Part shown: in pieces, positions 2,178-15,931 of the stretch
Layout of the letters: every line of letters starts with the position of its first letter
Numbering within the stretch: the first letter of the stretch is position 1
IMG/VR virus record: IMGVR_UViG_3300042340_000042
Coordinates: 1 to 37,640 of that record
Source of the DNA: a virus
DNA: 37,640 bases
Strand: one strand, 5' to 3'
The notes under the pieces: model-generated
The model's input: only the letters and a program-made list of their open reading frames with translations
The model's database searches: none
What the model was told of the DNA's origin: nothing
Made by a program: the position numbers and the translations under genes

Positions 2178-2197
2178 ATTGCGTCAAACAACTGCAA

Positions 2198-2545: not shown

Positions 2546-2554
2546 CACATGAAC

Positions 2555-2576
2555 TAACAATTAGAGAGAATTGTTA
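2555..2576. other. 8-base inverted repeat after the primase-helicase stop
   Basis: TAACAATT (2555-2562) and AATTGTTA (2569-2576) flank AGAGAG. There is no T run on the leftward side, so it is not the main terminator, which is at 2507-2545. It would form a stem-loop in the 3' untranslated RNA and may protect it from decay. Confidence 0.5.
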
Positions 2577-2584
2577 AAGGTAGT

Positions 2585-4861
2585 CTACTTAATCGCTACA
2601 ACTTTTGCAACAGGTTTTTGCTCTGCTAAATCACGCAGCGCAGACTTGCTCATGTGCGCAAACTCAGGTGCGCAGAAAATGTGTTTCTTAGTCTTAGCCG
2701 AGCGCGAATTGCACATTCCCTTATCAGCCCACCCAGCTTCTTCAAGTGCATGAAACAAAGCAGCAGGCGGGAATTGTTTACTGCCAAACGACATAGCGGC
2801 GCGTTCACAAATGGCTTGAAAGGGAGAGGCAATCACACCGGATGCAAACTCACCCATACGCAGCGTAATCATGTCAAGCAGCGACGACTCAACAGCGGAC
2901 AGACTATTCTGCACCAGTGACATTTTAAAGTCTGTCATAGGCGCAGGCGCAGCAGGGTTGAACGCAGACACATCACGCAAGAACAACCAGTTAGCAATAA
3001 GGTCATACCCACCGCCGTCATTAAACCATTTCCATATAGCGGTAGCTGATTGCGGCGCAAGACGCTCCGCCGTACTCCAAGTAGCAAACCAACGACGGTC
3101 GCCCGATTCGAGTGACAACGGCACACGGTCATTAGAGAACGCAAGCACGGCAAGACGGTTTACAAGGTTATACGGGGCAAGGCCTTTACGGTTAACGGAT
3201 AGCATCTCAGGTGGCGCGGCGATAACAGGCTTGAGTTTGTTGGCTAGCATCCGACGGGCGGCGCTGTCGGCTTCTTTAAGCTCATTAATAACAATAACCT
3301 CTGCTTCTAAATGATAGCCCCACGCGGACTGAATGGTGTCAGTAGACATAAGCGAGTAATTACGCAAATGAGGTCCACACACGGCGTAAATGAATGGGGC
3401 ATACATCGTATCTTTACCGATACCTTGACCACCCGCGTGAAGAATAGCGTGGTTAATCTTAACGCGCGGATTCTGCACCTTAAACGCCATGTAATTCCAA
3501 ATGTGTTCCAGCTCACGCTCGTCAGGAACAAGCGATTTACAGTGGTCAAGCCATAGGGATATATTGCCACCCAAATTTCCGCCACGAGATGAATCTGGAC
3601 GGGCGTCACGCCATCGGTTGCCATACAATTCACCGTCACGCATAGCAATCACCGAGTCACCAGCGGCAAAGGTGATACCTGCCAGCACTCTAGCGCCCAT
3701 CACCTGACGGTTCTCGTCAAAGCTCATGGCGGCCTCTATCTTGCGGTCAGAGTGAATACTTTTGCACGACACATGACGAAACACGGCGTTGAACGTCTGA
3801 CGTGAGAATTCACGACGGTTTTGCAAATCAAAATAAGAGTCGTCTGACATGACGTAAGCAAAGCGTTGATACCACTCCGCCTTTTCAAGCCGCGCGATTT
3901 CCTTCTGCTCGACTTCTGCAATGATAGCCGCCGCCGCGTCAGTGCTGAACATATCAGTGGGTTCGAGTTTGTTAATCGCTGTGTGCATCACCTCTGCAAG
4001 TATTTCTTCACGAAGACCATGTGAGTGTTTAGGGCCGCCCATCTCAGCTACCCATGCGAGGTAAGTACGGCTATCCCACGACGCGCAGTGACCATGAAAG
4101 CAACAGTAAGCGCGGTTAAGCGGGTGGTATCTGCCCATCAACTGCCCGTCTGTATGCTCAGCGTGGTTAGGGCAAACAACCCCAACCCACCCCTCAGCGT
4201 TAGCGGACTCCATCACGTCACCACGCGAAGATAGCCATTCCAGCACGTCATCATTACCCGTGTCGATGATAGCAATCGGGCGCACTGTCGCCGTGTCAGC
4301 CGCAGACGGGTGAACGTTAAGCGCCGAGCAAATTTGGTCAAGCGTAAATTCACGCTCAGGGTGAAACTCCACAAGGATAGATTTGAACGACGCACGGTCA
4401 GGCTTCAAATTGACTGACGCAGGAAGGCGAAAATTACGCACGGGGTTAATCGCGCCACTGTCAGTATAGCCCGCGTCAGCGATTGCTTTAATAGCGGCGC
4501 TAAACTCACCTTTAGTTGGCATATCATCTAAAGCAAACGTGTAGCCCCACTGGTAATTCTGCGGTGAGGTTTCCATTATCCATGTCGGCTCAATAGGAGG
4601 ACGCAAACTCTTGGTGCCAATGTCGTCAAGCACGAGAAAAGCAACGTACTCGCAGTTGCCCGCACTCGCAGACGGTTTGCCATCTTTAAAACGTGACGAG
4701 ATAAACGACGCGGTATTGCCATACCACGCGCCTTTGCCGTCGTATCGAGAAGGAAGATAAGCAGGCCATGCAAACTGACCGTTGTCTTTAGCAATTTGTT
4801 TGACTAAAAGGATACTTTCGCCTTCAGGCGCGATACGTTCCAAGTAAGTAATAAAATTCAT
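2585..4861 (-). CDS. Primase-helicase (RepB-type primase fused to helicase ATPase)
   Basis: The protein (758 aa) should prime and unwind DNA for phage replication. The N-terminus has VLDD (77-80) followed by IGTK, and NFRLPASVNLKP (143-154), the pattern of RepB-like archaeo-eukaryotic-type primases. A Cys/His cluster at 230-259 (C230, H233, C254, H256, C259) looks like a primase zinc finger. The C-terminal part is a P-loop helicase of the DUF5906/NrS-1 polymerase-like type: Walker A GGQGIGKD (477-484), Walker B VIVINE (522-527) and a sensor segment FSND (575-578). The start at 4861 overlaps the polymerase stop as ATGA and has an AGAGAG ribosome site eight to thirteen bases upstream; an in-frame ATG 57 bases earlier is inside the polymerase gene. 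It is last in the leftward unit. The motifs are clear; the exact subfamily is less certain. Confidence 0.87.
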   Translation of the reverse strand: MNFITYLERIAPEGESILLVKQIAKDNGQFAWPAYLPSRYDGKGAWYGNTASFISSRFKDGKPSASAGNCEYVAFLVLDDIGTKSLRPPIEPTWIMETSPQNYQWGYTFALDDMPTKGEFSAAIKAIADAGYTDSGAINPVRNFRLPASVNLKPDRASFKSILVEFHPEREFTLDQICSALNVHPSAADTATVRPIAIIDTGNDDVLEWLSSRGDVMESANAEGWVGVVCPNHAEHTDGQLMGRYHPLNRAYCCFHGHCASWDSRTYLAWVAEMGGPKHSHGLREEILAEVMHTAINKLEPTDMFSTDAAAAIIAEVEQKEIARLEKAEWYQRFAYVMSDDSYFDLQNRREFSRQTFNAVFRHVSCKSIHSDRKIEAAMSFDENRQVMGARVLAGITFAAGDSVIAMRDGELYGNRWRDARPDSSRGGNLGGNISLWLDHCKSLVPDERELEHIWNYMAFKVQNPRVKINHAILHAGGQGIGKDTMYAPFIYAVCGPHLRNYSLMSTDTIQSAWGYHLEAEVIVINELKEADSAARRMLANKLKPVIAAPPEMLSVNRKGLAPYNLVNRLAVLAFSNDRVPLSLESGDRRWFATWSTAERLAPQSATAIWKWFNDGGGYDLIANWLFLRDVSAFNPAAPAPMTDFKMSLVQNSLSAVESSLLDMITLRMGEFASGVIASPFQAICERAAMSFGSKQFPPAALFHALEEAGWADKGMCNSRSAKTKKHIFCAPEFAHMSKSALRDLAEQKPVAKVVAIK

Positions 4862-6777
4862 TTTCCATATCTCTCTAATGTTGATACACCAACCGCTAAG
4901 GGTAATCCTTCTGCCCACGCAGGGGCGCTACACATCACGGTTTCCAAGTCTTGCGCGGCTGTCGCCGCATCTTCTTTTTTCACTTCCAGCACAATCTCGT
5001 CGTGAACATGAAGCACGACAGTATGCCCGATTCGCGCTAATGCGTCACGAAGTAAATCATTTGCAATCGCCTGTGTAATATTCTCACAAGCGAGTCCAGC
5101 CCATAACCTAGCTCGCGGCCATTCGACTGCATCAGCAGCGGGTTTCCACGCCGCCTTAGCGTAAGATACCGACCCGTCTTCAATATATGCCGATGGGTAG
5201 CATAGCACCCGACCAGACGGCAGGGCGTACCACAAATTCACACCGTCAAACAGATACGTCACGCGACCAGCGGTAAACTCACGCCCCTTATGGCGCATGG
5301 CGCACATATACGCTCGCTCAAGCTCACCCCAATACTGCACCGCCCATGAGTTACTGCGACGCCACGCGTCAACGGTGCGCTTAGCCTCCGCTTCAGGCAG
5401 TGAAATGCCATAGGCTTTACCCATCGCGCCAAACGCCCCAGCCCCACCCATATAGCCGCACGACAAAATAGCGACCTTACCAATCTGACGTTGGTCAGGC
5501 GTTATCATATCCATCGGACGGTTAAAGATACCAGCGGCGGCGCGAACGTAAATGTCCTCGCCACTGCGAAACACGTTAAGCACATCTTCACTGCCATGCT
5601 GCAAACTAGCCCAAGGCGTCACACGCGCTTCAATACCTGCCCAATCTGCTACCACAAAAACATTACCGGCGGCAGGCATCAACGCAGGGCGAAGCATACC
5701 CTTTAAAACGTCCGTCACACGCTTGCCATGCACCGGAACAATGTCACGCCCAACGACCATATCATCACGCACCCGTTGTGGCTCTTTAGCGCATTTACGC
5801 GTAAAGTTATGCACCTGCGCACCATAGGACGACGCTCGACCAGTCGCACTGCCACCATTAAACACAAACGCGCCACGCACACGATGGTCTTCAAAATCTG
5901 CAAGAGAAAGCAGACGGCTAAACTTCGCCACAGACGACGCCCACAAGTCATCAGCGCATTGAATAACCTCCGCAACGTGCGGCGGAATTTCTTCAGGGTC
6001 GTCCATCAACAGCAAATTAGCGCGAACGCTTTTGTCGATAGAATACTTCTCACCATTCCACATTAGCTCACGAGCGACAGAACCAACACGCTCAAGCACC
6101 CACTCACGCATCTTCGGTGAACGAACAGATTTAATTGCACCGTCCGTTAGCTCCACGACGCGAGATTGGATTTCCTCAAGCTCAACGCTAGCGTAGCGCA
6201 TGGCGGCACGGCACAAGTCAACGTCCACGAGAACACCTGCGTCGTTAATGCGCTCGTTGACGTGATAGTCTGCAAGCTCGTCATTTGTCAACTGACGCAG
6301 TGCAGTAGACACTGCTCGCATGGTTCTTACGTCTTGACGGCAATACTCGATAAGCTCAGGTAGCAATTTGGTGTTAAACGGAGGAGTACAGCACTGCTTA
6401 ACTAACATCTTGCCACGATGGTCTTTGCGCATCTCGCTAGAGATAGCACGTCCAACATCCTCAAGACTGCCCGGAAGGCAATTAGCTCGTGCTTGCACAG
6501 CGGTGCAGTAAAACTGCTCAAGCGTATAGTCTATCTGTAGAACGTACCAAAAGATTAGCCGCTCAAACGCGGCGTTATGCGCTCGTATCTGACCCGTGAA
6601 GTTGCGAACGTTGTCAGGAAACGGCATATCAGGCGTCCATGTCTGCACGTCCTCATCATCAAAGGCGTAGCACATACACAGCACGTCAGTAGTCAGGTCT
6701 TGCGCGTAATTGTAAACGCCATGCTTAGGCAAATCACATTCGCTTCTTGTTTCAAAATCGATATAAAGTATAGGCAT
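4858..6777 (-). CDS. Family A DNA polymerase with 3'-5' exonuclease
   Basis: This is the replicative DNA polymerase (639 aa). The N-terminal proofreading domain has DFE at 7-9 (Exo I), N68 within RAHNAAFE (Exo II) and Y145-x3-D149 (Exo III). The polymerase domain has TGRASS at 312-317, motif A D378-WAGIEAR, motif B R430 to K434 and Y442 (RQIGKVAILSCGY) and motif C VHDE at 591-594, so the catalytic residues are present. The 5' nuclease domain of bacterial Pol I is absent, as in phage polymerases. The start is secure because Exo I begins six residues in, yet no ribosome site lies next to it; the only good one (AAGGAG, 6810-6805) is on the far side of a terminator-like hairpin. I see no T7-type thioredoxin requirement or clear clamp-binding peptide. 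Confidence 0.95.
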   Translation of the reverse strand: MPILYIDFETRSECDLPKHGVYNYAQDLTTDVLCMCYAFDDEDVQTWTPDMPFPDNVRNFTGQIRAHNAAFERLIFWYVLQIDYTLEQFYCTAVQARANCLPGSLEDVGRAISSEMRKDHRGKMLVKQCCTPPFNTKLLPELIEYCRQDVRTMRAVSTALRQLTNDELADYHVNERINDAGVLVDVDLCRAAMRYASVELEEIQSRVVELTDGAIKSVRSPKMREWVLERVGSVARELMWNGEKYSIDKSVRANLLLMDDPEEIPPHVAEVIQCADDLWASSVAKFSRLLSLADFEDHRVRGAFVFNGGSATGRASSYGAQVHNFTRKCAKEPQRVRDDMVVGRDIVPVHGKRVTDVLKGMLRPALMPAAGNVFVVADWAGIEARVTPWASLQHGSEDVLNVFRSGEDIYVRAAAGIFNRPMDMITPDQRQIGKVAILSCGYMGGAGAFGAMGKAYGISLPEAEAKRTVDAWRRSNSWAVQYWGELERAYMCAMRHKGREFTAGRVTYLFDGVNLWYALPSGRVLCYPSAYIEDGSVSYAKAAWKPAADAVEWPRARLWAGLACENITQAIANDLLRDALARIGHTVVLHVHDEIVLEVKKEDAATAAQDLETVMCSAPAWAEGLPLAVGVSTLERYGK

Positions 6778-6810
6778 AAAAAAAGGCGGCCTTTCAGCCG
6801 CCCTCTCCTT
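6778..6810 (-). terminator. Terminator-like hairpin with split ribosome site before polymerase
   Basis: Leftward: AAGGAG (6810-6805), then GGCGGC (6802-6797), loop TGAAAG, GCCGCC (6790-6785), seven T (6784-6778), and the polymerase ATG immediately after. It has every feature of an intrinsic terminator. The hairpin separates the Shine-Dalgarno from the ATG by 27 bases; folded, it would reduce the effective gap to about nine. It may therefore both limit transcription and present the ribosome site, as known for the split site of phage T4 gene 25. Confidence 0.85.
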
Positions 6811-6815
6811 ATCGG

Positions 6816-7460
6816 TTATGCGCGTCTGCGGCGGGTGGCAGGCGCGTCATCTTCGATGACTTCTTGAGGTGTGTCTTCTGAAGGTTCGCCGTCAAGGCTA
6901 ATCCACTGCACAATGTCAAACATCGGGGTGTAGATACGCCCGTAGGCTTTGTGCTGATAATGTTCTTTACCAAGAGATACAACAGCAACAGGTTTAGTTT
7001 GGTCTGTTTCTACCTGATTAGCGATATTGACTGCTAATGTTTGCACGGCGCGTTTACCGCCTACGCTGGTGACTGTGTAGCGTACTTCTTCGCCTTTGTC
7101 TTCACCGTCGATACATTTGAGGGAGAAGCCCACTTGCGTTTCCCAACCGCGTTTAGCCGCGGCAGGCGCAGGTTCAACTTGTGGCAATGGTTCAGTCACG
7201 CTTACCATTTTCTCACCTAATACTTCACCTTCACCCCACGCAATAAAGCCGTGCGTGAAACTGAAAGGATTAACTGCCCACACGCTATCATTATCCACTT
7301 CAGTTTCAGACGCGCCATATACCCAATGACCTGTTCTATCCATTTTAAGGATAGTCACGCCACCAGAAGTATTGGTGTCAGTCTGAAGGTTACGAAGTGC
7401 AGATGAAATTGAATTTACGGCTGGAAGGTTGGCATTGCCAAATACTGTTAGATTAGACAT
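6816..7460 (-). CDS. Hypothetical replication accessory protein, 214 aa (possible ssDNA-binding)
   Basis: I cannot assign a family with certainty. The chain begins MSNLTVFG, is predicted to be mostly beta strand (for example 33-110 and 125-190), has a Pro/Ala linker near 95-105 and ends with an acidic stretch (near 190-205) followed by RRRR-A. A beta-rich body with an acidic tail, between a nuclease and the DNA polymerase in one unit, suggests a single-strand-binding or annealing role, but the final arginines are unlike a standard SSB tip. The start has AGGA seven bases upstream. The stop lies just before the polymerase ribosome site. Confidence 0.65.
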   Translation of the reverse strand: MSNLTVFGNANLPAVNSISSALRNLQTDTNTSGGVTILKMDRTGHWVYGASETEVDNDSVWAVNPFSFTHGFIAWGEGEVLGEKMVSVTEPLPQVEPAPAAAKRGWETQVGFSLKCIDGEDKGEEVRYTVTSVGGKRAVQTLAVNIANQVETDQTKPVAVVSLGKEHYQHKAYGRIYTPMFDIVQWISLDGEPSEDTPQEVIEDDAPATRRRRA

Positions 7461-7469
7461 TTTAGTTTC

Positions 7470-8588
7470 CTATAGTTTATTGAGGGCGTTTGTTAATTGT
7501 TGCCCGATTAATAAGACAGTAGGGCGCGGGTCAGATTCGTGCGCCATTGTACTGCCAGAAGATACCACTGCGACAACATCATCCGGCATAGGCAGTTTCA
7601 GAGCCTTTAATTTCTTCTCTGCTTGCGCCGGTGAAACCAATTTGGAATCGTAGATGTCGTCATTTGTTAGGCCAAGAGCCAAAAGCGATTCAACTGCTTG
7701 CGCTTCGTTAGTCCATTTTCTTGTCCCACGCTTCGCAACAAGTTTGTAGTTTGGGACGGGTTTACCCGCTTCAAGCATTTGAAACGCTAATGCTCTCAAA
7801 TCGGTAATCCATTGTTCCAGAATCTCAGCTTGTTGTAAATAGTTTGCAATAGATTCTGCATCGATACTGTCAAGCGTTGCCTTTAGCGCCCTATCTACCT
7901 CACCTGTCATTAACGGGCAAGTTGGTTTAGCCGCGCACCACTTGCAGTGTTTGCCACTGGCTAATGGCGCATTAGGTGTTTCAGATAAATCAATAGCTTT
8001 CTTGAGCGTTTTCTCAAACTCACGAATGCGTTTAGCGGTGGTTTTCCAGCGTTTAACAGACGGGGGTTGAACAATCACAAGCTCAATAGATGCCGCGCCA
8101 TCAAACACCCATTCTAGCCCTTTTGTGCGCATAGCGGCGGCGGCGTAGAACATGAGCTGCTCGTTTTCTTCCACTTCTACGCTAACGCCACTGCCAAACT
8201 TCCAGTCAAGAATAACAGCGCGGTCGCCAAGTCTGCCAATAAGGTCAACGCTACCAAACACGTCAGGCAAGAAATCACCGTAGCTTACGTTAGCTTCAAC
8301 GGTAAACTCCATCGATTTAGAAGGGTCAATTTCATCAAGCGCCGCCAGCGCCGGTTCAATCTTTTCTTTTGCCAACTCAGTTGTCATATCAATGCCCGCA
8401 TACGACAAACTGTAAATGTTAAAGTTATCCTCAGTGAGTAGTTTTTCCATTGCAAGGTGGCAAAGCGTCCCTTCATCGGCATACGATGATGATGGTTTAG
8501 GTGGCATTTGTTGCACCAACTTAACACTGGCAGGACAAGCAATAACTCGTTTGGCGGTGCTACCGCCAGCAATACTTGAATGGCTCAT
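7470..8588 (-). CDS. DUF2800 / Cas4-like PD-(D/E)XK nuclease
   Basis: This 372-aa protein fits the RecB/Cas4-like exonucleases annotated as DUF2800 in phages, which probably process DNA ends in recombination or replication. Visible motifs are ADEGTLCH (37-44, His of motif I), GSVDLIG (112-118, D115), ILDWKFG (126-132, D128 and K130) and NEQLMFY (142-148, Q144, Y148), which is the order of the nuclease core. Cys18 near the start and C215, C218, C224 near the middle follow the Cas4/AddB spacing for an iron-sulphur cluster. The start overlaps the upstream stop as ATGA, with GGAG upstream. It is encoded with the polymerase and primase-helicase. Confidence 0.87.
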   Translation of the reverse strand: MSHSSIAGGSTAKRVIACPASVKLVQQMPPKPSSSYADEGTLCHLAMEKLLTEDNFNIYSLSYAGIDMTTELAKEKIEPALAALDEIDPSKSMEFTVEANVSYGDFLPDVFGSVDLIGRLGDRAVILDWKFGSGVSVEVEENEQLMFYAAAAMRTKGLEWVFDGAASIELVIVQPPSVKRWKTTAKRIREFEKTLKKAIDLSETPNAPLASGKHCKWCAAKPTCPLMTGEVDRALKATLDSIDAESIANYLQQAEILEQWITDLRALAFQMLEAGKPVPNYKLVAKRGTRKWTNEAQAVESLLALGLTNDDIYDSKLVSPAQAEKKLKALKLPMPDDVVAVVSSGSTMAHESDPRPTVLLIGQQLTNALNKL

Positions 8589-8737
8589 TTGTCTTTCTCC
8601 AAAACATAGTCAGATAAATCGTCAATAATTTTAATCAACTCATCACTGTGGTGGTCGGGTACATCGGTTTGCATAAAAACATACATCTCTAAACCAGATA
8701 GCAACTTTAAGATACGGAGTGCTTGTTCTTTATTCAT
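8585..8737 (-). CDS. Small acidic protein, 50 aa
   Basis: I do not recognise it. The protein starts MNKEQALRIL and ends in an acidic, likely helical segment. The start codon has GGAGAG eight bases upstream, and both ends overlap neighbours as ATGA, so it is almost certainly translated in the replication unit. The chain is predicted to be two helices, with a short His/Asp-rich turn (DVPDHHSDE, near 25-33). Confidence 0.72.
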   Translation of the reverse strand: MNKEQALRILKLLSGLEMYVFMQTDVPDHHSDELIKIIDDLSDYVLEKDK

Positions 8738-8934
8738 TTCTTCTCTCCACTAAGTTGATAAGGGTGGCAGGTTAGATTCCATCTACCTGCAAACTGCAAA
8801 TTTTTAAACGCAAAATCCTGTCTAACTGCCGCGCTTTCACACGAAGCCTTATCTGCAAATTCGATTGTTGATTGTGTAAGCTCACCGTGAGTTGTTACAG
8901 CGATAATTAGTATATAGGCTGTTGTTGCAATCAT
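8734..8934 (-). CDS. Small exported or membrane-anchored protein, 66 aa
   Basis: Residues 1-15 are hydrophobic (ATTAYILIIAVTT) without a strong positive start, so either an uncleaved anchor or a weak signal peptide. The rest is soluble with Cys33 and Cys56, which could form a disulphide outside the cytoplasm. The start has GGAAG seven bases upstream. The N-terminal coding part overlaps the upstream gene by 53 bases in another frame. The pattern around the first Cys (A-x-C-x-x-A) resembles the 82-aa protein at 9567-9815 in the divergent unit. Confidence 0.6.
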   Translation of the reverse strand: MIATTAYILIIAVTTHGELTQSTIEFADKASCESAAVRQDFAFKNLQFAGRWNLTCHPYQLSGEKK

Positions 8935-9073
8935 TTTGTTTCTTCCAATATTGTTTTAAGTTAAGCCTAACGTGGTCTACATCCACGTCGTACCGCTGGT
9001 TTAGTTCGTCCATCATCTTCACTCGTGACTTCCTGCCGTAGTAATAAAACTTACCGCATTTAGTTAGGGGCAT
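8882..9073 (-). CDS. Small basic protein, 63 aa, first gene of replication unit
   Basis: I do not recognise it. It starts MPLTKCGKFYYYGRK and is strongly basic, with a likely helix over 16-52 (R/K, D/E and hydrophobic residues alternating), which suits nucleic-acid binding. AGAGGA lies five bases before the ATG, the best ribosome site of the unit, and the gene follows the promoter at 9104-9112 directly. The last 17 codons overlap the next gene in a different frame; that overlap may couple their translation. Confidence 0.62.
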   Translation of the reverse strand: MPLTKCGKFYYYGRKSRVKMMDELNQRYDVDVDHVRLNLKQYWKKQNDCNNSLYTNYRCNNSR

Positions 9074-9103
9074 CGTCTTCCTCTAATTGTTTAATGAGAT
9101 TGC

Positions 9104-9112
9104 AGTATATCA
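9104..9112 (-). promoter_or_regulatory. Leftward promoter, extended -10 TGATATACT
   Basis: Leftward reading gives TG-A-TATACT at 9112-9104, an extended -10 element that can work with a poor -35. Transcription would start near 9097 and serve the genes from 9073 to 2585. The repeats at 9115-9140 cover the spacer and -35 side, so a bound protein would affect it. Confidence 0.6.
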
Positions 9113-9114
9113 AA

Positions 9115-9140
9115 AAAAGTTTGCAAAGAAAAGTTTGCAA
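9115..9140. promoter_or_regulatory. Two direct repeats AAAAGTTTGCAA, shared operator
   Basis: Exact 12-base copies lie at 9115-9126 and 9129-9140, 14 bases apart, in the 82-base gap between the two divergent units. They overlap the upstream part of the leftward promoter and the possible rightward promoter. This is where a switch between the two units would be expected. No regulator has been identified; the HTH-like protein at 10155-10349 is one candidate. Confidence 0.55.
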
Positions 9141-9149
9141 TGATAAACT
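9121..9149 (+). promoter_or_regulatory. Possible rightward promoter reaching the VRR-NUC start
   Basis: TTGCAA (9121-9126) and TAAACT (9144-9149) are 17 bases apart and each match four of six consensus bases. Transcription would then start at about the ATG at 9156, which has no ribosome site before it, implying a leaderless mRNA. The match is weak, and a phage-specific promoter is equally possible. Confidence 0.35.
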
Positions 9150-9155
9150 TTAGCC

Positions 9156-9431
9156 ATGTTAGAAAAAGACATCGAAAAATACTTAATAAAAGTCGTCAAA
9201 GAAATGGACGGCAAATCGTATAAGTTCACCTCCCCTGCTTGTCGAGGAGTGGCAGATAGAATTGTGTGTTTACCTAATGGCAGTACATGGTTTATTGAGC
9301 TTAAAACCGCAGGTGGCAAGCTGTCAGCACTGCAAAAAGTTTTTGCATCAGACATGGGCAAACTTAATCAAAAGTACGCTTGTCTTTGGAGCAAAGAAGA
9401 TATTAACAACTGGAGAGAGAATAATGATTGA
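9156..9431 (+). CDS. VRR-NUC domain nuclease
   Basis: VRR-NUC proteins are small PD-(D/E)XK nucleases; phage members act alone on branched DNA such as Holliday junctions and often accompany SNF2-type helicases. The 91 residues contain the core: GVADRI (31-36, D34), FIELK (46-50, E48 and K50) and KLSALQ (55-60, Q60). The start at 9156 suits the family N-terminus (M-x-E-x-x-IE) but lacks any Shine-Dalgarno sequence. It is the first gene of the second rightward unit, which also encodes a SNF2-type helicase at 13526-14812. The assignment is firm; the DNA substrate is inferred from the family. Confidence 0.92.
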   Translation: MLEKDIEKYLIKVVKEMDGKSYKFTSPACRGVADRIVCLPNGSTWFIELKTAGGKLSALQKVFASDMGKLNQKYACLWSKEDINNWRENND

Positions 9432-9570
9432 ATTTTTACAATACCTTGATGAAAGCAATTTGGCATACCTTATTATGCTGTTTTGCTTCTTAATAATGGC
9501 GCGTTTACATTTGTCAGCGCTAACTGAAATTACACGTCTGCGTAAAATCATGAAGCAGGTGATGAGATGA
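9424..9570 (+). CDS. Single-span membrane protein, 48 aa
   Basis: GGAGAG stands eight bases before the ATG, inside the end of the VRR-NUC gene, which it overlaps by eight bases. Residues 13-32 form a membrane span (LAYLIMLFCFLIMARLHL region) followed by a basic tail with RLRK near 38-41, so the C-terminus probably faces the cytoplasm. No family is recognised. It ends in an ATGA overlap with the next gene. Confidence 0.6.
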   Translation: MIEFLQYLDESNLAYLIMLFCFLIMARLHLSALTEITRLRKIMKQVMR

Positions 9571-9815
9571 GCGCAACACTAGCACTAACATTATCGTTTT
9601 TGACTGTTGATACTAATATCGACAAACGTGGCAAAACAACCACGCATGAGGTAATCGCGTACACAAGCGTTGCAATACCTTACGACACTATGCAAGCGTG
9701 CAACAACGCAAAGGAAGAATATACCTTTGCAGTAGGCGCATATCAATTATTCAAACGCCCGACGCGCATTATTGGCGCAATTTGCAATGATAGTGCAACG
9801 GGGACAGTACAATGA
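9567..9815 (+). CDS. Small, possibly exported protein, 82 aa
   Basis: The start overlaps the preceding stop as ATGA. The first 14 residues (MSATLALTLSFLTV) are moderately hydrophobic but lack the basic end of a normal signal peptide. Two cysteines (near 45 and 73) could pair outside the cytoplasm. The block MQACNNAKEEY resembles KASCESAAVRQ in the 66-aa protein at 8734-8934, so the two may be distant relatives placed on either side of the divergent promoters. Function unknown. Confidence 0.62.
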   Translation: MSATLALTLSFLTVDTNIDKRGKTTTHEVIAYTSVAIPYDTMQACNNAKEEYTFAVGAYQLFKRPTRIIGAICNDSATGTVQ

Positions 9816-10162
9816 GTTTATTAACAAAAGAACAACTTAAAGAAATACTTTTAATTATTGAAGAAGAAGTAAATGTTGAATGGCCATGTTCTATGTTGGA
9901 AATGCTCCATAAATGGAACGAAAAACAACCACCGCAGACGGCACGCGAAATGTATCAACGGGGGTATGCAGCGGCAGAGCGTGATTTAAAATTGCTTGTT
10001 GTAGTTTTAAAGCAACAACTAGCTGAAAAGGTCGCTCATATAGAACTAGAGCCACAACGCCAAAAAGATATAACTGCGAAACAAAGGATTGAATCGTTTA
10101 GGTCAGGTTATTTTCGAGCCATACTTGATTTAAAGCCTGTAAATGGGGCAGACAATGACTGA
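9812..10162 (+). CDS. Hypothetical helical protein, 116 aa
   Basis: The chain is predicted to be nearly all helix: 5-20, 28-34, a MYQRGYAAAERDLKLLVVVLKQQL helix around 50-75, and 80-110. It is charged throughout, has one Cys and no membrane span. The ATGA overlaps at both ends show that it is a true member of the unit. I recognise no domain. Confidence 0.65.
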   Translation: MSLLTKEQLKEILLIIEEEVNVEWPCSMLEMLHKWNEKQPPQTAREMYQRGYAAAERDLKLLVVVLKQQLAEKVAHIELEPQRQKDITAKQRIESFRSGYFRAILDLKPVNGADND

Positions 10163-10349
10163 AACAACGATAAAAAAATACTGTGAGCAATATAAAATTA
10201 GTCGCTCTGGCATGGATTACCATATTCGCCGGTCAGGTGTGTTTCCAATCGGCAGTAAACGATTCTCCGAAGCAGGCGCACCATCATTCTTGTGGCGCGT
10301 TACCGATTTAGATGAAATCAAAGCGCTAATTAAAGGAAAGAAAAAATGA
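10155..10349 (+). CDS. Small HTH-like DNA-binding protein, 64 aa
   Basis: The sequence TIKKYCEQYKISRSGMDYHIR (residues 4-24) has the spacing of a helix-turn-helix: helix, turn at KISRSG, recognition helix. A wing-like part (GSKRFSEAGAPSFLWRVTD) and a short C-terminal helix with KGKKK follow. That suits a phage regulator or excisionase-like binder, but there is no integrase here, so a transcription role is more likely. I prefer the ATG at 10155 (GGGG seven to ten bases upstream); an in-frame ATG at 10143 would add four residues. It could bind the repeats at 9115-9140; that is a guess from location. Confidence 0.6.
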   Translation: MTETTIKKYCEQYKISRSGMDYHIRRSGVFPIGSKRFSEAGAPSFLWRVTDLDEIKALIKGKKK

Positions 10350-10546
10350 AAGATGAACTACTTTGGATTGCAGTTGGCGCGTTCTTAATTAGCGCTATTG
10401 CGTCAACGTTAACAATTTACGCAACACACAGGCAGTATCAAAACATTATTAAAACTAACATTGGCGAATTTATGCTTCGTGACGGTAAAGTGTATGGCGT
10501 TTATGAAATGACGCGCGATGTGCAAGGTAATATGGTGTCAAAATGA
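10346..10546 (+). CDS. Single-span membrane protein, 66 aa
   Basis: An N-terminal membrane segment (residues 6-26, LWIAVGAFLISAIASTLTIYA) is followed by a soluble tail of about 40 residues with a DGKVYGVYEMTRD strand-turn-strand. AAGGAAAGAAAA precedes the ATG, and both ends overlap neighbours as ATGA. No family recognised. It is one of at least three single-span small proteins in this unit (with 9424-9570 and 11984-12061). Confidence 0.66.
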   Translation: MKDELLWIAVGAFLISAIASTLTIYATHRQYQNIIKTNIGEFMLRDGKVYGVYEMTRDVQGNMVSK

Positions 10547-11853
10547 AATTTGGAAGCGTATGTAGCGGCATTGAAGCCGCAAGCGTAGCATGGAATAAAC
10601 TTAAATGGAGCGCATCTTGGCTTGCTGAGATAGAGCCATTCCCATCAGCAGTATTGGCGCATCATTATCCAGATGTGCCAAACCTTGGTGATATGACGCA
10701 GCTACCAGAGAAAATTCTTTCTGGTGAAATTGAAGCACCAGATGTTTTTTGTGGTGGTACGCCATGTCAAGCATTCAGTATTGCTGGCAACCGAAACTCT
10801 CTTGATGATGCAAGAGGAAACCTTTCACTCATTTTTTGCGAGATAGCAGATGCCATTGACACAGTTAGAAGTATTCCAACCATTATCTTCTGGGAAAACG
10901 TCCCCGGAGTTCTCAACACCAAAGACAATGCCTTCGGATGTTTTCTGGCTGGACTCGCAGGAGAAGATGGTGAGCTTAAGCCATCCGGGAAAAAATGGAC
11001 AAACGCTGGTATGGTGCTTGGACCCAAAAGAGCAGTCGCGTGGCGCGTCCTCGATGCCCAATATTTCGGACTGGCCCAACGACGCAAACGTGTGTTTGTT
11101 GTCGCAAGTGCTAGAGACGGGTTCAATCCCGCAGAGGTTCTTTTTGAGTTCGATGGCTTGCGCAGGGATACTGCGCCGGGCAGAATCTCGCGGGAAGCAA
11201 CTGCCACCGATGCTCAAAGCGGCATTGGAACATACAACAAACAACGCATAGGTGAATATAGCACTGAAGATGTTGCAAGCACTTGCGCTGCTCGTGATTA
11301 TAAGGATGCGACTGATTTAGTTACTTATGAGAATTTTAAATCGGTATATGAGATGCACGCTCAAGACGCTAGAGTTCAAAATGTAGGTGATGTGCTACCA
11401 ACGATGTCAGCAACTTATGGTAGTGGTGGTGGGAATATTCCAGTTACTTATGGTATTGCAGAAAACATTATCAATCGACAAGACCATAACGGTGGAAATG
11501 GCATAGGCAGTCAAGAAGAATTGCAATACACATTAAACGCAACGGGTGTGCATGGTATCTGCACCATGTCTGATGTAGCAGGCCCACTTGATGCGTCATA
11601 TTACAAAGGACAAGGTTCACGGCAAGGTGGTGAGCGTGAATTTGTAGGTTATGAAATGGCAGTACGCAGATTAACACCCACAGAATGTGAACGCCTGCAA
11701 GGTTTCCCAGACGGTTATACACAGATACCTTGGCGTAATAAATCCGCTGAGAATTGTCCAGATGGGCCACGATATAAAGCATTAGGCAATAGCTGGGCAG
11801 TTCCAGTTGTTGCGTGGATTGGTGAGCGTATAGCAAAAGAGGTAGCAAAATGA
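10543..11853 (+). CDS. DNA (cytosine-5) methyltransferase
   Basis: The enzyme (436 aa) transfers methyl from S-adenosylmethionine to C5 of cytosine in a specific sequence. Motif I is FGSVCSGIEA (3-12), motif IV GGTPCQAFS with catalytic C75, motif VI FWENV (116-120), motif VIII QRRKRVF (near 178-184), and motifs IX-X are RLTPTECERLQGFPDGY and RYKALGNSWAVP near the C-terminus. All essential motifs are present, so it should be active. The segment between VIII and IX (about 210-370) is the target-recognition region; I cannot read the target. No restriction endonuclease partner is visible, so it probably protects the phage genome or alters host methylation. It is coupled by ATGA to both neighbours. 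Confidence 0.96.
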   Translation: MKFGSVCSGIEAASVAWNKLKWSASWLAEIEPFPSAVLAHHYPDVPNLGDMTQLPEKILSGEIEAPDVFCGGTPCQAFSIAGNRNSLDDARGNLSLIFCEIADAIDTVRSIPTIIFWENVPGVLNTKDNAFGCFLAGLAGEDGELKPSGKKWTNAGMVLGPKRAVAWRVLDAQYFGLAQRRKRVFVVASARDGFNPAEVLFEFDGLRRDTAPGRISREATATDAQSGIGTYNKQRIGEYSTEDVASTCAARDYKDATDLVTYENFKSVYEMHAQDARVQNVGDVLPTMSATYGSGGGNIPVTYGIAENIINRQDHNGGNGIGSQEELQYTLNATGVHGICTMSDVAGPLDASYYKGQGSRQGGEREFVGYEMAVRRLTPTECERLQGFPDGYTQIPWRNKSAENCPDGPRYKALGNSWAVPVVAWIGERIAKEVAK

Positions 11854-11984
11854 CAAAAGACGAATGTTACAAACGCCTTGAGATGGCTCAAAAAAACAAG
11901 AAGGAGCTGAAAAAAATTAAACTTCAACTCCTCAAAGAAATCGAGCAATTAAAGTTAATGCTTCGCGCACTGGAGGAAGGGTAA
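11850..11984 (+). CDS. Coiled-coil small protein, 44 aa
   Basis: ATGA overlaps the methyltransferase stop. The 44 residues are lysine- and leucine-rich with a heptad-like pattern from about residue 19 to 41 (ELKKIKLQLLKEIEQLKLML), predicting a dimeric coiled coil. One Cys at 6. The last codons contain GGAGGAAGG, which is the ribosome site of the next gene. Function unknown. Confidence 0.6.
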   Translation: MTKDECYKRLEMAQKNKKELKKIKLQLLKEIEQLKLMLRALEEG

Positions 11985-12061
11985 TGCAAATCGATGACGT
12001 TGCAGCGCTCATGTTTTACATTGGCGTACTATTTTTAACGGGGTTATGGCTATGTCATTAG
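11984..12061 (+). CDS. 25-aa membrane peptide
   Basis: TAATG overlap with the preceding gene and a strong GGAGGAAGG ribosome site 5 bases upstream support translation. Residues 8-24 form one hydrophobic span ending in WLCH. Its reading frame overlaps the next start at 12052. Too short for family assignment. Confidence 0.5.
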   Translation: MQIDDVAALMFYIGVLFLTGLWLCH

Positions 12062-12210
12062 TAAAACCCATATCACCAGTGACGCCTGCGCCAACAACGG
12101 TTGACTGTAAACATGACCATTGGCGCATATATAATAGTCTTGGTTACCGCGAATGTGACCGCTGCAAAGAACGAAGACCCATTTTTAATGATATACGGCA
12201 CCAAAGATGA
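12052..12210 (+). CDS. Small zinc-finger-like protein, 52 aa
   Basis: A proline-rich start (MSLVKPISPVTPAPTT) is followed by C19-K-H-D-H23, then C35-D-R-C38, the arrangement of a small metal-binding knuckle that might use C19, H21 or H23, C35 and C38. The ATG lies in the end of the previous gene, and the stop overlaps the next start as ATGA. Such basic zinc ribbons in phages often touch nucleic acid, but I cannot name the family. Confidence 0.6.
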   Translation: MSLVKPISPVTPAPTTVDCKHDHWRIYNSLGYRECDRCKERRPIFNDIRHQR

Positions 12211-12443
12211 ACATTTCACAAATATTTATAGGGCTTAGCCCTTTTTTAAAAGACAGATTTACTAGCGAAGTGTTTACGCTTGGCTTAATTAACGAGCTTA
12301 ACGAGCAACGCTTTCGTGCTAGATGCCGGCGCTTGGTACGTCAGCACAACGGCGAAACGCGCAAGCTATATAAAGCGCTAAACAACTTGACGATGGACGA
12401 CAGATTACGATTTTTTGACGTGGTAAGTGGAAATGAAAGATAA
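12207..12443 (+). CDS. Hypothetical basic protein, 78 aa
   Basis: A helical, arginine-rich protein (RFRARCRRLVRQHNGETRKLYKAL over 36-59) that begins with a hydrophobic stretch. The ATGA overlap with the zinc-finger-like gene supports the start. Its codons 9-14 contain a terminator-like hairpin (12230-12247), so expression of everything downstream may depend on read-through or on ribosomes disrupting the hairpin. Function unknown; nucleic-acid binding is plausible from charge. Confidence 0.62.
   Translation: MNISQIFIGLSPFLKDRFTSEVFTLGLINELNEQRFRARCRRLVRQHNGETRKLYKALNNLTMDDRLRFFDVVSGNER
12230..12247 (+). terminator. Terminator-like hairpin inside a coding region
   Basis: AGGGC (12230-12234), loop TTA, GCCCT (12238-12242) and five more T. 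It is a short version of the terminator at 2198-2218 (both GGGCTTA...AGCCC-T6). Inside a translated region it would work only when ribosomes are scarce. Confidence 0.35.
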
Positions 12444-13017
12444 AGATTTAGAGATTATAAGAAGCGCGATACGATACAACAGTAACACCGGACACTTCTT
12501 CAAAGGCGGCGCAAATACGCCTGCCGCGCTTAGTTGGAAAAACAAAAACGCCACCATTAACGTCAAGAAAAGCGGTATGCACTCCTATTTTCTAGCGTGG
12601 AAGATTGCCGTGTTTTTAGCTTATGGATGGTATCCGGAGCATACTGACGCAGTAGAGTATTTAGACGGCAATCCGTGCAACTTAAGCATTAGCAACATCA
12701 AGGTTATTAAAGCAGGCGAAGATGAAATGACCATGATTGACTTTTGCGACGAAAACGATTTGCGCTACCCTAGCGTGTCAGCGCTCATGCGCGGTGAGCC
12801 GTTTATTCGTCGAATAGAAAATGGCTATTCTCGAGCATATTTTAAGAAAAGTTTACTAGAACAAAACTGCGCCAAACTAATGGCTAAAAAGCATCGCGAC
12901 GAAGAAATCAGAAGTAAGCCCAAGCGACCTATGGGCAGACGACGTAATCAGCACTTTATGGACTTTTTAAAAACGCACTACATAGTGCCTAAACGTTGGG
13001 AGATGACATTATGCTAA
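12433..13017 (+). CDS. Degenerate HNH-endonuclease-like protein
   Basis: Residues near 45-90 (HSYFLAWKIAVFLAYGWYPEHTDAV, then EYLDGNPCNLSISNIK) parallel the HNH family core, in which a W..A...G..P element is followed by VDHIDGNPxNNRxxNL. Here the metal-base dipeptide D-H is E-Y and only some of the later Asn remain, so nuclease activity is probably lost. The C-terminal third is strongly basic (KKHRDEEIRSKPKRPMGRRR), fitting DNA binding. It may serve as a DNA-binding factor derived from an HNH enzyme. ATG at 12433 is preferred; GTG at 12427 would add two residues. It overlaps both neighbours. Confidence 0.6.
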   Translation: MKDKDLEIIRSAIRYNSNTGHFFKGGANTPAALSWKNKNATINVKKSGMHSYFLAWKIAVFLAYGWYPEHTDAVEYLDGNPCNLSISNIKVIKAGEDEMTMIDFCDENDLRYPSVSALMRGEPFIRRIENGYSRAYFKKSLLEQNCAKLMAKKHRDEEIRSKPKRPMGRRRNQHFMDFLKTHYIVPKRWEMTLC

Positions 13018-13253
13018 GAGGTGACAGTGTTCATGTAGATGGCGACGCAGTAAACGCGCCAGCGCATTATCAAGGCGACAAGATGCAGTGCATTGACGCG
13101 ATGGAAGCAATGCTTACGCAAGATGAGTTTCGTGGGTATTTGCGCGGTAATGTTTTTAAGTATCAATGGCGCTTTAGAGAAAAAGGCGGCGGTGAAGATT
13201 TACGCAAAGCGAGATGGTATTTAGACAGACTAATCAAATTGGAGAATTTCTAA
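13011..13253 (+). CDS. DUF3310 family protein, 80 aa
   Basis: DUF3310 proteins are widespread small phage proteins of unknown role, often within nucleotide or replication gene clusters. The pattern is clear: VNAPAHYQGDKMQCIDAM (near 14-31), then GNVFKYQWRFREKGGGEDLRKARWYLDRL (near 47-75), matching P-x-HY ... IECID ... GNVIKY-x-x-R-x-x-K-x-G-x-EDL-x-KA-x-x-YL. I choose ATG 13011, preceded by GGGAGA; an in-frame ATG at 12996 is inside the upstream gene with poorer context. Confidence 0.88.
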   Translation: MLRGDSVHVDGDAVNAPAHYQGDKMQCIDAMEAMLTQDEFRGYLRGNVFKYQWRFREKGGGEDLRKARWYLDRLIKLENF

Positions 13254-13414
13254 TGTACGCATTTAAAAGTGGACCTGTTGACCAAGACCCAACCATCAAA
13301 GGCCTTCGTGGCGAAGATATGGAAAACTACATGAATTTGCTTAAATGGCTAGATTCTGTACCGTTTATTCCCCTAAAGGTTAGCGACTTTGTGCTACCTT
13401 GGCGGGATAGATGA
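13253..13414 (+). CDS. Hypothetical protein, 53 aa
   Basis: TAATG overlap with the DUF3310 gene and GGAG nine bases upstream support the start at 13253. The chain is acidic in the middle, with a helix GLRGEDMENYMNLLKWLDSV (20-39) followed by a hydrophobic, proline-containing end. Not recognised. It ends in ATGA overlap with the next start. Confidence 0.63.
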   Translation: MYAFKSGPVDQDPTIKGLRGEDMENYMNLLKWLDSVPFIPLKVSDFVLPWRDR

Positions 13415-13821
13415 AGCCAAAGCTCAAAACGATGAATGGGGTATGGATATGCTATACCCCTTGCTGCACCATTCCAATGATGGCAGACCACCCACAAACG
13501 GCGTATTTAAGATGGAAATTTATCAATGCTAAGACCCAATCAGATAGAAGCTGTTGCCTTTTTGAGCCAAATAGACAAGGGCATGATTCTCGCCCCAGTG
13601 GGGGCAGGCAAAACAGCGATAACGCTAACCGCCATGCAGCAAGCGCTCGACACGGGGAGAGTACGCCGGTTCTTAGTGATAGCGCCAAAGCGTGTCTGCA
13701 CGGACGTGTGGACGATAGAGCCGGCCAAGTGGGCGCCAAATCTGACAGTATCTATCGCCGTTGGCTCTTACGCGCAACGGTTAATCGCGTTCAACAAACC
13801 AACGCAGGTAGTGGTGACTAA
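13411..13821 (+). CDS. Small protein with long out-of-frame overlap into the helicase gene
   Basis: Translation should start at 13411 (ATGA overlap, GGCGGG upstream). The first 45 residues (MKPKLKTMNGVWICYTPCCT onward, with a CC pair and WKFINAK) look like a genuine small phage protein. From 13526 the frame runs 296 bases through the helicase gene in another frame; that part is Arg/Ser-rich, low in hydrophobic residues and looks like a shadow. Either the true gene ended near 13540 and lost its stop through a frameshift, or a long dual-coding overlap exists. The N-terminal 45 residues are credible; the rest is not. Confidence 0.45.
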   Translation: MKPKLKTMNGVWICYTPCCTIPMMADHPQTAYLRWKFINAKTQSDRSCCLFEPNRQGHDSRPSGGRQNSDNANRHAASARHGESTPVLSDSAKACLHGRVDDRAGQVGAKSDSIYRRWLLRATVNRVQQTNAGSGD

Positions 13822-14812
13822 TTACGATACGCTGCAAACGCTACCGCCATTGCCTGACTTTGACGGCGTGGTGTTTGACGAGTTGACTGTTTTAAAGAAC
13901 CCATCAGGTAAACGTTTTAAAGCGTTGTTTGCCCGCATTAAGGATTTTAAAATTAAATGGGGTCTTACCGGCTCATTTACCAGTAACGGACTTGAGGACG
14001 TATTTGGGCAATGCAAGATAGTGGACACAGCGCTACTTGGAAAATCTAAGACCGCCTTTCTTCAAACGTATTTTGTGCTTCTTAACAAAGACTTTGGTGA
14101 ATGGGTAGCTAAGTCCACTTCACTGCGTGACGTGATGGCGGTAATTAAGCCTGCAACGTACCTTATCGACACGCAAGAGTATATGGATACTTTACCCCCG
14201 CTTAACGTTGTGCCGGTCAAATGCGCAATGGATATGAAGCAGTACAAAGAGATGAAGAAAGACTTTGTAGTGTATTACGACGATAAAGAAATCATAGCGG
14301 TTAACGCCGCTGTGGTGGTAAACAAACTGCAACAAATGGCTAGCGGGTTTTCGTATATTGAAGGGCAACCCACCGCATGGTTTTCGCGCCACAAGTTTGA
14401 CCGACTAGACGAAATACTGGCAGAAAACCAACACGCCAATACGATTATTGTGTACAACTTTCAAGCAGAGCTTGAAGAACTTAAACGCCGATACCCTAAT
14501 GCGCGGACAATTGACCAGCAAGGTGTTATCTCATTGTGGAACGCAGGGCGAGTGGAATTACTGCTCGTCCACCCTAAGTCAGCAGGGCATGGGCTTAACC
14601 TTCAATTTGGCGGCAGTAAAATGGTGTTCCTGTCGCTTCCTTGGTCACTTGATAGATATGAGCAGACCATTGGACGATTGCACCGTAGTGGACAAAAGAA
14701 CGCCGTATATTGCTATGTACTGCTAACAGACAAAACCGTAGACGAGCGCATATTTGCAAGTCTACATGACAAACGCGCAATTTCAGATATTGCCTTAGAG
14801 GAATTAAAATGA
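13526..14812 (+). CDS. SNF2-type DEAD/DEAH-box helicase
   Basis: A superfamily 2 ATPase of the SNF2-like group (428 aa), expected to move along double-stranded DNA and perhaps to work with the VRR-NUC nuclease from the same unit. Motifs in order: Q-like RPNQIEAV (3-10), Walker A APVGAGKT (23-30, K29), Ia LVIAPKRV (50-57), II VFDEL (116-120), III GLTGSF (146-151), V HPKSAGHGLNLQ (near 350-361) and VI QTIGRLHRSGQ (near 384-394) with two arginine-finger candidates. No extra nuclease or binding domain is attached. The start lies inside the out-of-frame overlap with 13411-13821 and has no strong Shine-Dalgarno, so it may rely on coupling. Confidence 0.93.
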   Translation: MLRPNQIEAVAFLSQIDKGMILAPVGAGKTAITLTAMQQALDTGRVRRFLVIAPKRVCTDVWTIEPAKWAPNLTVSIAVGSYAQRLIAFNKPTQVVVTNYDTLQTLPPLPDFDGVVFDELTVLKNPSGKRFKALFARIKDFKIKWGLTGSFTSNGLEDVFGQCKIVDTALLGKSKTAFLQTYFVLLNKDFGEWVAKSTSLRDVMAVIKPATYLIDTQEYMDTLPPLNVVPVKCAMDMKQYKEMKKDFVVYYDDKEIIAVNAAVVVNKLQQMASGFSYIEGQPTAWFSRHKFDRLDEILAENQHANTIIVYNFQAELEELKRRYPNARTIDQQGVISLWNAGRVELLLVHPKSAGHGLNLQFGGSKMVFLSLPWSLDRYEQTIGRLHRSGQKNAVYCYVLLTDKTVDERIFASLHDKRAISDIALEELK

Positions 14813-14988
14813 ACAACTTAACATGGCGTGACATCTTCTTTAATTTGAATACTTACACAGAAGGTGAATTACAGGTGATGATTGAATCAGAGCGTCACGG
14901 TAAACGTAGACGCTCTATATTAGTGCGATTGCATCAGCGCTATTGCATCCTTCGCGCGACTCGCGAACGTGATGATTTACTCGCTTAA
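14809..14988 (+). CDS. Small basic protein, 59 aa, last of rightward unit
   Basis: AGAGGA precedes the ATG, which overlaps the helicase stop as ATGA. The centre and C-terminus are arginine-rich (ESERHGKRRRSILVRLHQRYCILRATRERDDLL), a pattern I have often seen in small phage proteins next to VRR-NUC and SNF2 genes, but I know no name or function. The last 12 bases overlap the endolysin gene on the other strand. A 6-base stem TTCGCG/CGCGAA (14951-14967) lies in its 3' end. Confidence 0.7.
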   Translation: MNNLTWRDIFFNLNTYTEGELQVMIESERHGKRRRSILVRLHQRYCILRATRERDDLLA

Positions 14989-15423
14989 AAACAACTCCGC
15001 TTCTGCATTTCTGCGTCGAGTAAGACCGGCTAATACTTTACCGCCAGCCTTGTTCCAGCGCAGAAACTGCGCCGCTATTTCAGACTTAGGTTCATCGGCT
15101 TTTAGCATCTTAACAAGCGTTGACGAAACAAAGTTGCCCGTGCCAATGTTATAGCAAAAGCATACCAGCGCATCAAACTCGTTCTGCGTTAGCTCAACCT
15201 TAACTGCGTTTACAGCGTGTTCGTAGGGGGCAAGCGTCTGCGCTAGTAAATGCAAAGCCGCTGCTTCGGTTGGTAGCGCCTGATTGACTTTCACAGGTGT
15301 TCCATCAGCGTAGCGAGTTGAGCCTATGCCAATCGTCCACACGCCCGCAGGGCATTTATATGACAATAGCTTACATCCTTCAAATTCTTTAATTAGGGCT
15401 AACCCTTTTTCACCTATCTTCAT
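14977..15423 (-). CDS. Endolysin, GH24 lysozyme
   Basis: The enzyme (148 aa) cuts the glycan strands of peptidoglycan at the end of infection. The T4-lysozyme-type triad appears as E15-x8-C24-x5-T30 (EFEG, YKCPAGVWTIG); the position usually Asp is Cys, a variant known in active members. NEFDALVCFCYNIG (near 84-97) and the C-terminal RWNKAGGKVLAGLTRRRNAE signature are intact. No signal-anchor sequence is visible, so release probably needs a holin, and small membrane proteins precede it. The start overlaps the upstream stop as ATGA. It is the last gene of the long leftward unit and converges on the rightward unit. Confidence 0.95.
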   Translation of the reverse strand: MKIGEKGLALIKEFEGCKLLSYKCPAGVWTIGIGSTRYADGTPVKVNQALPTEAAALHLLAQTLAPYEHAVNAVKVELTQNEFDALVCFCYNIGTGNFVSSTLVKMLKADEPKSEIAAQFLRWNKAGGKVLAGLTRRRNAEAELFLSE

Positions 15424-15662
15424 TTTTTTTCTCGTAGCAATAGAATAGTGGTCAGTTTTTGCGTCAGTCTTATCATGTCATTATCCAGCACCCGCACTTG
15501 GTCGATTAGCTCAATTAGCGCGTCTGTGGCTTCTTGCAGGATAGGCTTTACGACGGTGGTTGCCCAAAGCCATACAAAGTAAACAATATAACCCATGCCG
15601 CCAGCGGCAATAATTGGGAATCCATACTGGTTAATATATTTAGCGATTGCATTGGCGTCCAT
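15420..15662 (-). CDS. Holin-like small membrane protein, 80 aa
   Basis: A membrane span covers about residues 14-38 (GFPIIAAGGMGYIVYFVWLWATTVV), followed by a helical cytoplasmic tail ending in REKK. It lies directly before the endolysin, the expected place for a holin. The N-terminal region YGFPIIAAGGMGYIVYFV closely resembles VGFPIAAATGGMYFVYL in the upstream 89-aa protein, so the two are probably paralogues and may form a holin/antiholin or two-part pair. AGAGG stands eight bases before the ATG. Confidence 0.65.
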   Translation of the reverse strand: MDANAIAKYINQYGFPIIAAGGMGYIVYFVWLWATTVVKPILQEATDALIELIDQVRVLDNDMIRLTQKLTTILLLREKK

Positions 15663-15931
15663 TAATCTTTCCTCTCAACAGGAGGCGGTCTTGGTCTGTC
15701 TTTTTCTTGCGGTATGTTAAGCGCCGTTGACGCCAAATCATCAATTTTGGTGATGTCACATGACATAGCGGTAACGCGCTTATCAAGTTGCTTGATGATG
15801 CCTATTAGGCTTTTAATCTTCTCAAGCACACTATCGAGCAAGAATTTCTGCGTCAGGTAGACAAAATACATTCCGCCAGTCGCCGCCGCGATAGGGAATC
15901 CTACGTCCGAAGCAAACTGTAGGAATTCCAT
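15662..15931 (-). CDS. Holin-like paralogue, 89 aa
   Basis: It has one membrane span at about 10-28, an amphipathic helix to about 65 and a proline/charge-rich end (PRPPPVERKD). Both this and the 80-aa neighbour share a GFPI-A-A-x-GG-Y pattern in the span, pointing to tandem duplication. TAATG coupling joins it to both neighbours. Its role as holin, antiholin or accessory cannot be told apart from sequence. Confidence 0.6.
   Translation of the reverse strand: MEFLQFASDVGFPIAAATGGMYFVYLTQKFLLDSVLEKIKSLIGIIKQLDKRVTAMSCDITKIDDLASTALNIPQEKDRPRPPPVERKD

Follow-up and report, generated by a model that had tools for sequence, protein, structure and literature searches.

The window, which is the whole stretch of DNA that was analysed, is a virus record of 37,640 bases, in which two gene units diverge from the region 9074-9155 (Table 1). 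The leftward unit comprises the genes of a DUF2800/PD-(D/E)XK exonuclease-like protein, a 214-aa protein, a DNA polymerase and a primase/helicase-like protein. It opens with an ORF of 63 amino acids that matched no PHROG or Pfam family, is overlapped by a further ORF of 66 amino acids and is not conserved here among close relatives. The rightward unit begins with a VRR-NUC-type nuclease and includes a C-5 cytosine methyltransferase, an SNF2-type helicase and small ORFs. The name of the nuclease derives from the PHROGs, with phrog_5702 (Holliday junction resolvase, E=7e-5) as the second match, and from annotated relatives in staphylococcal phages, which carry the VRR-NUC annotation at 39.5% identity; the Pfam scan of the protein gave no match at E<=0.001. 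The kinds of genes are those of the DUF2800/polymerase/VRR-NUC/SNF2 replication module of many phages. While this module seems to run in one direction in other phages, it is split in the window into two divergent units, with a predicted promoter pair between the DUF2800 gene and the nuclease.

Table 1. Coordinates of genes and of predicted regulatory elements in the window
Feature	Position	Strand	Remark
Primase/helicase-like gene	2585..4918	-	PF19263 DUF5906, phrog_1156 DNA primase
DNA polymerase	4858..6777	-	phrog_17 DNA polymerase, E=5e-92
214-aa gene	leftward unit	-	phrog_9528 match
DUF2800/PD-(D/E)XK exonuclease-like gene	7470..8588	-	PF10926 (E=7e-60), PF12705, phrog_69
First leftward ORF, 63 aa	8882..9073	-	start at 9073
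Predicted leader of leftward transcript, ~24 nt	9074..9097	-	SD AGAGGA (9084-9079)
Leftward extended -10, TGATATACT	9104..9112	-	no clear -35 in window
Repeat copy 1, AAAAGTTTGCAA	9115..9126	+	contains rightward -35 candidate
Rightward -35 candidate TTGCAA, 17-bp spacer	9121..9126	+	inside repeat copy 1
Repeat copy 2, AAAAGTTTGCAA	9129..9140	+	in spacer of rightward promoter
Dyad AAAGTTT (9130-9136)/AAACTTT (9145-9151), possible operator	9130..9151	.	overlaps rightward -10
Rightward extended -10, TGATAAACT	9141..9149	+	6 bp before ATG
VRR-NUC-type nuclease, 91 aa, first rightward gene	9156..9431	+	phrog_93 endonuclease, E=2.5e-24
64-aa protein	10155..10349	+	AlphaFold: predicted beta-helix-helix...beta-helix
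C-5 cytosine methyltransferase	10543..11853	+	PF00145, E=1e-39
SNF2-type helicase	13526..14812	+	PF00176, phrog_62

Elsewhere in the window, the endolysin is a PF00959 lysozyme, and the gene at 1081-2088 encodes a sliding clamp domain of the DNA polymerase III beta type (PF02767), which is probably uncommon in a phage of such size. Within the methyltransferase gene, the stretch 10996-11184 has about 82-89% DNA identity to Vibrio and Pectobacterium phages (20 of the 27 records listed) and, save for a slightly longer first row, is the only matching part of 2400-14900 among the matches listed; its similarity would likely reflect a recent exchange.

The leftward extended -10 described in the earlier note was found on the minus strand, and transcription from it would start near 9097, leaving a short leader with a Shine-Dalgarno (SD) sequence whose anti-SD energy for the start at 9073 amounts to -6.0 kcal/mol. 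A generic promoter scan listed a second leftward candidate, TTGATA-16-AACAAT (9113-9086), with a start near 9079. Since that start would fall inside the SD sequence, the extended -10 is preferred as the leftward promoter.

At the nuclease ATG, 9156, the absence of a ribosome site was likewise confirmed; the anti-SD duplex has an energy of +0.6 kcal/mol, compared with -3.0 kcal/mol or lower for 34 of the 45 gene starts listed in the window, the other ten weak starts including mechanical GTG/TTG ORF starts that are perhaps wrong. The rightward unit has a promoter of its own, which the earlier note had not named: on the plus strand, TTGCAA is followed after 17 bp by TGATAAACT, TTAGCC and the ATG. 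Among the 45 listed starts, 9156 has the top -10 score at 4-8 nt upstream. The generic scan of positions 1-19000 was without enrichment (33 sites versus 32.9 in shuffles), and the rightward promoter is absent from its list, with 8 of 12 hexamer bases matching where the scan needs 9. By consensus, this putative promoter is weak; the case for it rests on conservation, not on consensus. The usual distance from the -10 element to +1 is 6-7 nt, and from the spacing between the -10 and the ATG it follows that the nuclease mRNA would start at the AUG or no more than about 2 nt from it. As would be expected of a leaderless gene, the start codon is ATG and no SD sequence precedes it.

For comparison, IMG/VR was scanned with the DUF2800 and nuclease proteins, which yielded overlapping sets of 80, 80, 80, 80, and 77 loci. 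Of the 360 loci that contain both genes, 359 have them in divergent orientation, although many contigs occur repeatedly. Identical 5' ends were merged prior to clustering, which left 141 distinct 5' ends, grouped into 50 clusters. Where the nuclease is the first gene, 23 of 34 clusters have a -10 hexamer (score >=5) at 5-8 nt from the start, versus 1 of 16 where it is internal (Fisher p 4.6e-5). These flags were set automatically, with L321, L287, and L335 apparently misflagged and the start of L163 mis-set, and the counts are uncorrected; moreover, the clusters share ancestry, so that p-values overstate their independence and the statistics given here serve as guides, not as probabilities. 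The spacing in the 24 clusters with a near -10 is 7 nt in 16, 6 nt in six, and 8 nt and 5 nt in one each. Starts for the 50-cluster counts were chosen by a revised rule, by which L322 and L346 were seen to be re-chosen.

A second comparison employed 22 clusters in which the DUF2800 gene and the nuclease are directly adjacent and which were chosen without a promoter criterion. It was made with the older choice of starts, in which L346 is mis-set, as are L322 and L342. The mean -10 score is highest at 7 nt (z 5.6), and for whichever of 6 and 7 nt scores better the average is 3.20 versus -0.20 in 1000 shuffles (sd 0.62, largest 2.03); 13 of the 22 pairs have their best hexamer at 6-8 nt, and nine, L346 among them, have it elsewhere. 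On the leftward side, the best -10 in 25 clusters has a mean score of 6.57 versus 5.29 in 300 shuffles (sd 0.28, max 6.45), and 16 of the 25 show the TG typical of an extended -10, where 3.9 would be expected (max 9). By eye, a GGA-type site was seen before the leftward start codon in the 18 cases in which the 40 bases displayed extend to one.

Start codons and ribosome sites were compared across the same division. All 24 clusters with a near -10 start with ATG, while a non-ATG codon is found in 6 of the 26 others (p 0.023), or in 5 of 25 when the mis-set L163 is left aside (p 0.050). The median anti-SD energy is +0.5 kcal/mol with a near -10 and -3.2 kcal/mol without it; SD-like pairing of -3.0 to -4.0 accompanies a near -10 in 3 of 24 clusters (L346, L321, L199). 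Eleven of the 34 first-gene clusters are without a near -10. Among them, L319 and L327 have SD leaders; L352, L142, L147, and L163 have adjacent divergent genes with no SD sequence and no convincing -10; in L240 the hexamer is 4 nt away, L316 and L078 are weak, and in L287 and L335 the gene is probably internal. With the near -10 so distributed between first and internal genes, and with exceptions that carry SD leaders, the suggestion of the earlier note that the nuclease mRNA is possibly leaderless is well supported by comparison. The clusters L352, L353, L142, L147, L154, and L163 share the lack of an SD sequence and of a recognisable -10 at the usual place before the nuclease ATG, and in at least some members the divergent genes are separated by no more than about 61-64 bp; the metagenomic record MW202483 from Manatee Spring, though divergent in arrangement, is a member of this group without a clear -10.

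Natural variants exist in which the promoter is kept and the first gene is swapped, namely for a Mom-like gene in L220, a Cro/CI-type gene in L068, phrog_1273 in L175 and L215, and a gene for a 59-aa protein in L140. In others (L308, L216, L205, L287, L340, L319, L327) a longer leader that includes an SD-like site comes after a like promoter, and in L205, L287, and L340 the position of the leaderless ATG is taken by ATC. A protein-free scan with a pattern ending before the G of the ATG retrieved at least 120 stretches, many of them of recent shared ancestry. Among the matches listed, the next base completes the ATG in 116 of 120. Of these 116 listed matches, 95 begin a nuclease gene (94 by BLAST, one cut by the end of the stretch), 19 a different small protein of other phages (57 aa in L375, 54 aa in L385), one a YdaS/Cro-like protein that narrowly misses the Pfam cut-off and one a Mom-like protein; the four remaining listed matches comprise, by eye, two with an SD-like leader and two that look like chance. 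In the 19 small-protein stretches among the matches listed, tblastn found no DUF2800 or nuclease gene. In L385, the one stretch printed, promoter and ATG are located just downstream of a 671-aa ORF, in the manner of a mobile or convergent module. A YdaS/Cro-like small regulator begins at the leaderless position behind a like promoter in L447 (about position 313, minus strand). Judging from these arrangements, promoter and first gene are separable.

Taken together, 9074-9155 would most probably contain overlapping divergent sigma70-type promoters, with a leaderless nuclease mRNA and with output shared by competition. According to this reading, transcription from the leftward extended -10 would yield a replication mRNA whose short leader carries an SD sequence, while the rightward elements would start transcription at 9156 or about 2 nt from it at most; the nuclease mRNA would then begin at its AUG and undergo leaderless translation like that of lambda cI. 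The two -10 elements of the window lie 34 bp apart and the predicted starts about 60 bp apart. Over 25 clusters, the predicted start-to-start distance ranges from 35 to 84 bp, with 18 clusters at 46-66 bp and seven outside that interval. At distances of 46-66 bp, the polymerases probably exclude each other: from known footprint sizes, two polymerases would not be able to occupy both promoters. A polymerase on one promoter would thereby block the other, and promoter overlap alone could couple the units via competition for RNA polymerase.

Leaderless phage mRNAs have precedents. Lambda cI is presented as the standard case (PMC4965119, PMC9031893), and for phage PY54 both the cI and the cro mRNA are reported as leaderless, with ends found by RACE (PMC4488713). 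AUG is described as strongly preferred as leaderless start codon in E. coli, with looser demands in some actinobacteria (PMC9031893). As in these phages, the gene of the window would have an mRNA beginning at the AUG; it differs in encoding not a repressor but a nuclease, or in relatives another accessory protein, beside a replication operon, and in looking leaderless in one direction only, with a predicted 5' end. Bidirectional promoters of E. coli are reported to share one -10, with starts 10-23 bp apart (PMC12825309). Like the window, they drive divergent transcription from one short region at which opposing polymerases cannot co-bind; the window, however, has two separate -10 elements and no shared one.

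The earlier note had also drawn attention to two exact copies of AAAAGTTTGCAA, which are there, 14 bases apart from start to start, and are the only exact copies in the whole window. With up to two mismatches, 13 occurrences were counted versus 11.25 expected, from which it follows that the motif is not enriched elsewhere in the window. Of 20,000 shuffles of 9074-9155, five produced a 12-mer that recurs at a distance of 4-30 bases. Window-wide there are 16 such repeated 12-mer starts, at about six places, versus a mean of 0.16 and a largest value of 3 in 100 simulated sequences; other short direct repeats are therefore also present in the window, and repeats within 30 bases were seen at 2457-2470 and 21358-21430. 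An inverted AAACTTT at 9145-9151, absent from the earlier note, mirrors the AAAGTTT at 9116-9122 and 9130-9136.

These repeats invite an alternative, namely that TTTGCAA and the inverted AAACTTT serve as operators at which a dimeric regulator, of the phage or of its host, shuts one direction in a switch of the cI/Cro type. Such a switch, which could also act on top of the leaderless promoter pair, is a possibility with rather less than even chances. In its favour, 9115-9139 is without any variation in 45 distinct close relatives, even though the third codon positions of the nuclease vary at 42 of 92 places (7.4%); the last base of copy 2 is A in 41 of the 45 and G in four. Per base, variation is 0.8% over 9100-9155 (9 of 56 positions variable) and 17.8% over 9074-9099 (15 of 26). 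The spacer part 9127-9139 is invariant beyond the demand of sigma70 contacts alone, and the constancy of copy 2, which sits in this spacer, hints at a second function, for example a possibly bound protein. Dyads occur at the same place in other lineages, such as TAGCACAG-N8-CTGTGCTA in L160, although by our own reading two facing extended -10 elements would partly explain them, and a Cro/CI-type protein is the first rightward gene in one lineage, L068.

Against operators, 58 stretches of the viral collection contain the exact two-copy pattern, one match each, all with the promoter of the window: in each, an extended -10 (with single-base variants in three) and an ATG follow at the same position. 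The repeats are nearly invariant in the clade of the window only; more distant relatives have promoter elements in both directions with other sequences in place of the repeats. That one regulator balances both units via the repeats, as the earlier note proposed, is no more than a possibility. Among the gene products considered as regulator, the first leftward ORF is unlikely for its lack of conservation, and the 64-aa protein, the one small candidate of the rightward unit that was examined, is a weak candidate DNA-binding protein with poor structural support: pLDDT is 82.7 for the best AlphaFold model and 54-59 for the other four, and Foldseek gave no match at E<=0.001 (best E 0.56), with several MerR-type proteins among the weak matches and a MerR-like outline. 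The window proteins scanned gave no match to a repressor family, small ORFs being partly covered in the two libraries.

According to a further alternative, the rightward transcript would start further upstream and the nuclease would be translated from an SD-less leader. Such leaders are translatable in bacteria, and the rightward -35 is imperfect; the opposing promoter, however, occupies the region upstream of the -10, the two first-gene nuclease clusters with a clear leader have strong SD sequences (-8.5 kcal/mol in L319 and -7.4 kcal/mol in L327), and the short -10 spacing recurs across clusters, which makes an upstream start improbable. Least probable of all is a replication origin between the two units with the repeats as its iterons. 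Although direct repeats, an A+T-rich stretch and adjoining replication genes would suit an origin, there are two copies only, they coincide exactly with promoter elements, and relatives keep the promoters and not the repeats.

The overlapping promoters with a leaderless nuclease mRNA permit an extension that is offered tentatively and is somewhat unlikely in its full form, namely that the site is a fixed launch site, with +1 at the A of the AUG and with different first genes fused exactly at the start codon. Its scope would be a widespread phage group with a nuclease, a Mom-like modifier, a Cro-type regulator, or other small proteins as first gene. If true, the rightward unit would be expressed via 70S leaderless initiation and the opposing replication unit via SD-dependent initiation, and the two halves would respond differently to the state of ribosomes and initiation factors during infection.

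The phage group is known mostly from environmental sequence data. Phage-collection matches amounted to 671 records (40 listed) and 280 records (30 listed). Rhodoferax phage P26218 is the first of 12 terminase relatives listed (43.6%); as a match in arrangement it was rejected, its replication region being ordered differently by annotation. The hosts of the 12 listed relatives are Rhodoferax, Pelagibacter, Microcystis, or unassigned, and a terminase tally over 1,227 records includes many enterobacterial and Vibrio phages and also actinobacterial ones. A pattern-based scan of species genomes returned one relative, a contig in the MAG of an uncultured actinobacterium, perhaps assigned there by a binning error. 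In an actinobacterial host, leaderless genes would cause less surprise.

That phage transcripts often lack a leader is remarked on in a 2017 paper (PMC5312081), and the mechanism as such is to that extent less novel. Among the literature matches listed, in which subscription journals are thinly covered, neither a nuclease nor a replication operon of such phages was seen to be described as leaderless. What looks new is that a leaderless start is conserved on this operon, that first genes are exchanged at the start codon and that leadered versions coexist; the leaderless phage mRNAs cited above for comparison are those of repressor genes. Such a promoter can escape a generic consensus scan and yet be found by conservation of spacing. 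With 141 distinct 5' ends in 50 clusters, natural versions of the leaderless type and with SD leaders are available behind similar promoters, and they let one ask why a phage keeps or drops its leader and whether overlapping divergent promoters alone divide transcription between the two units.
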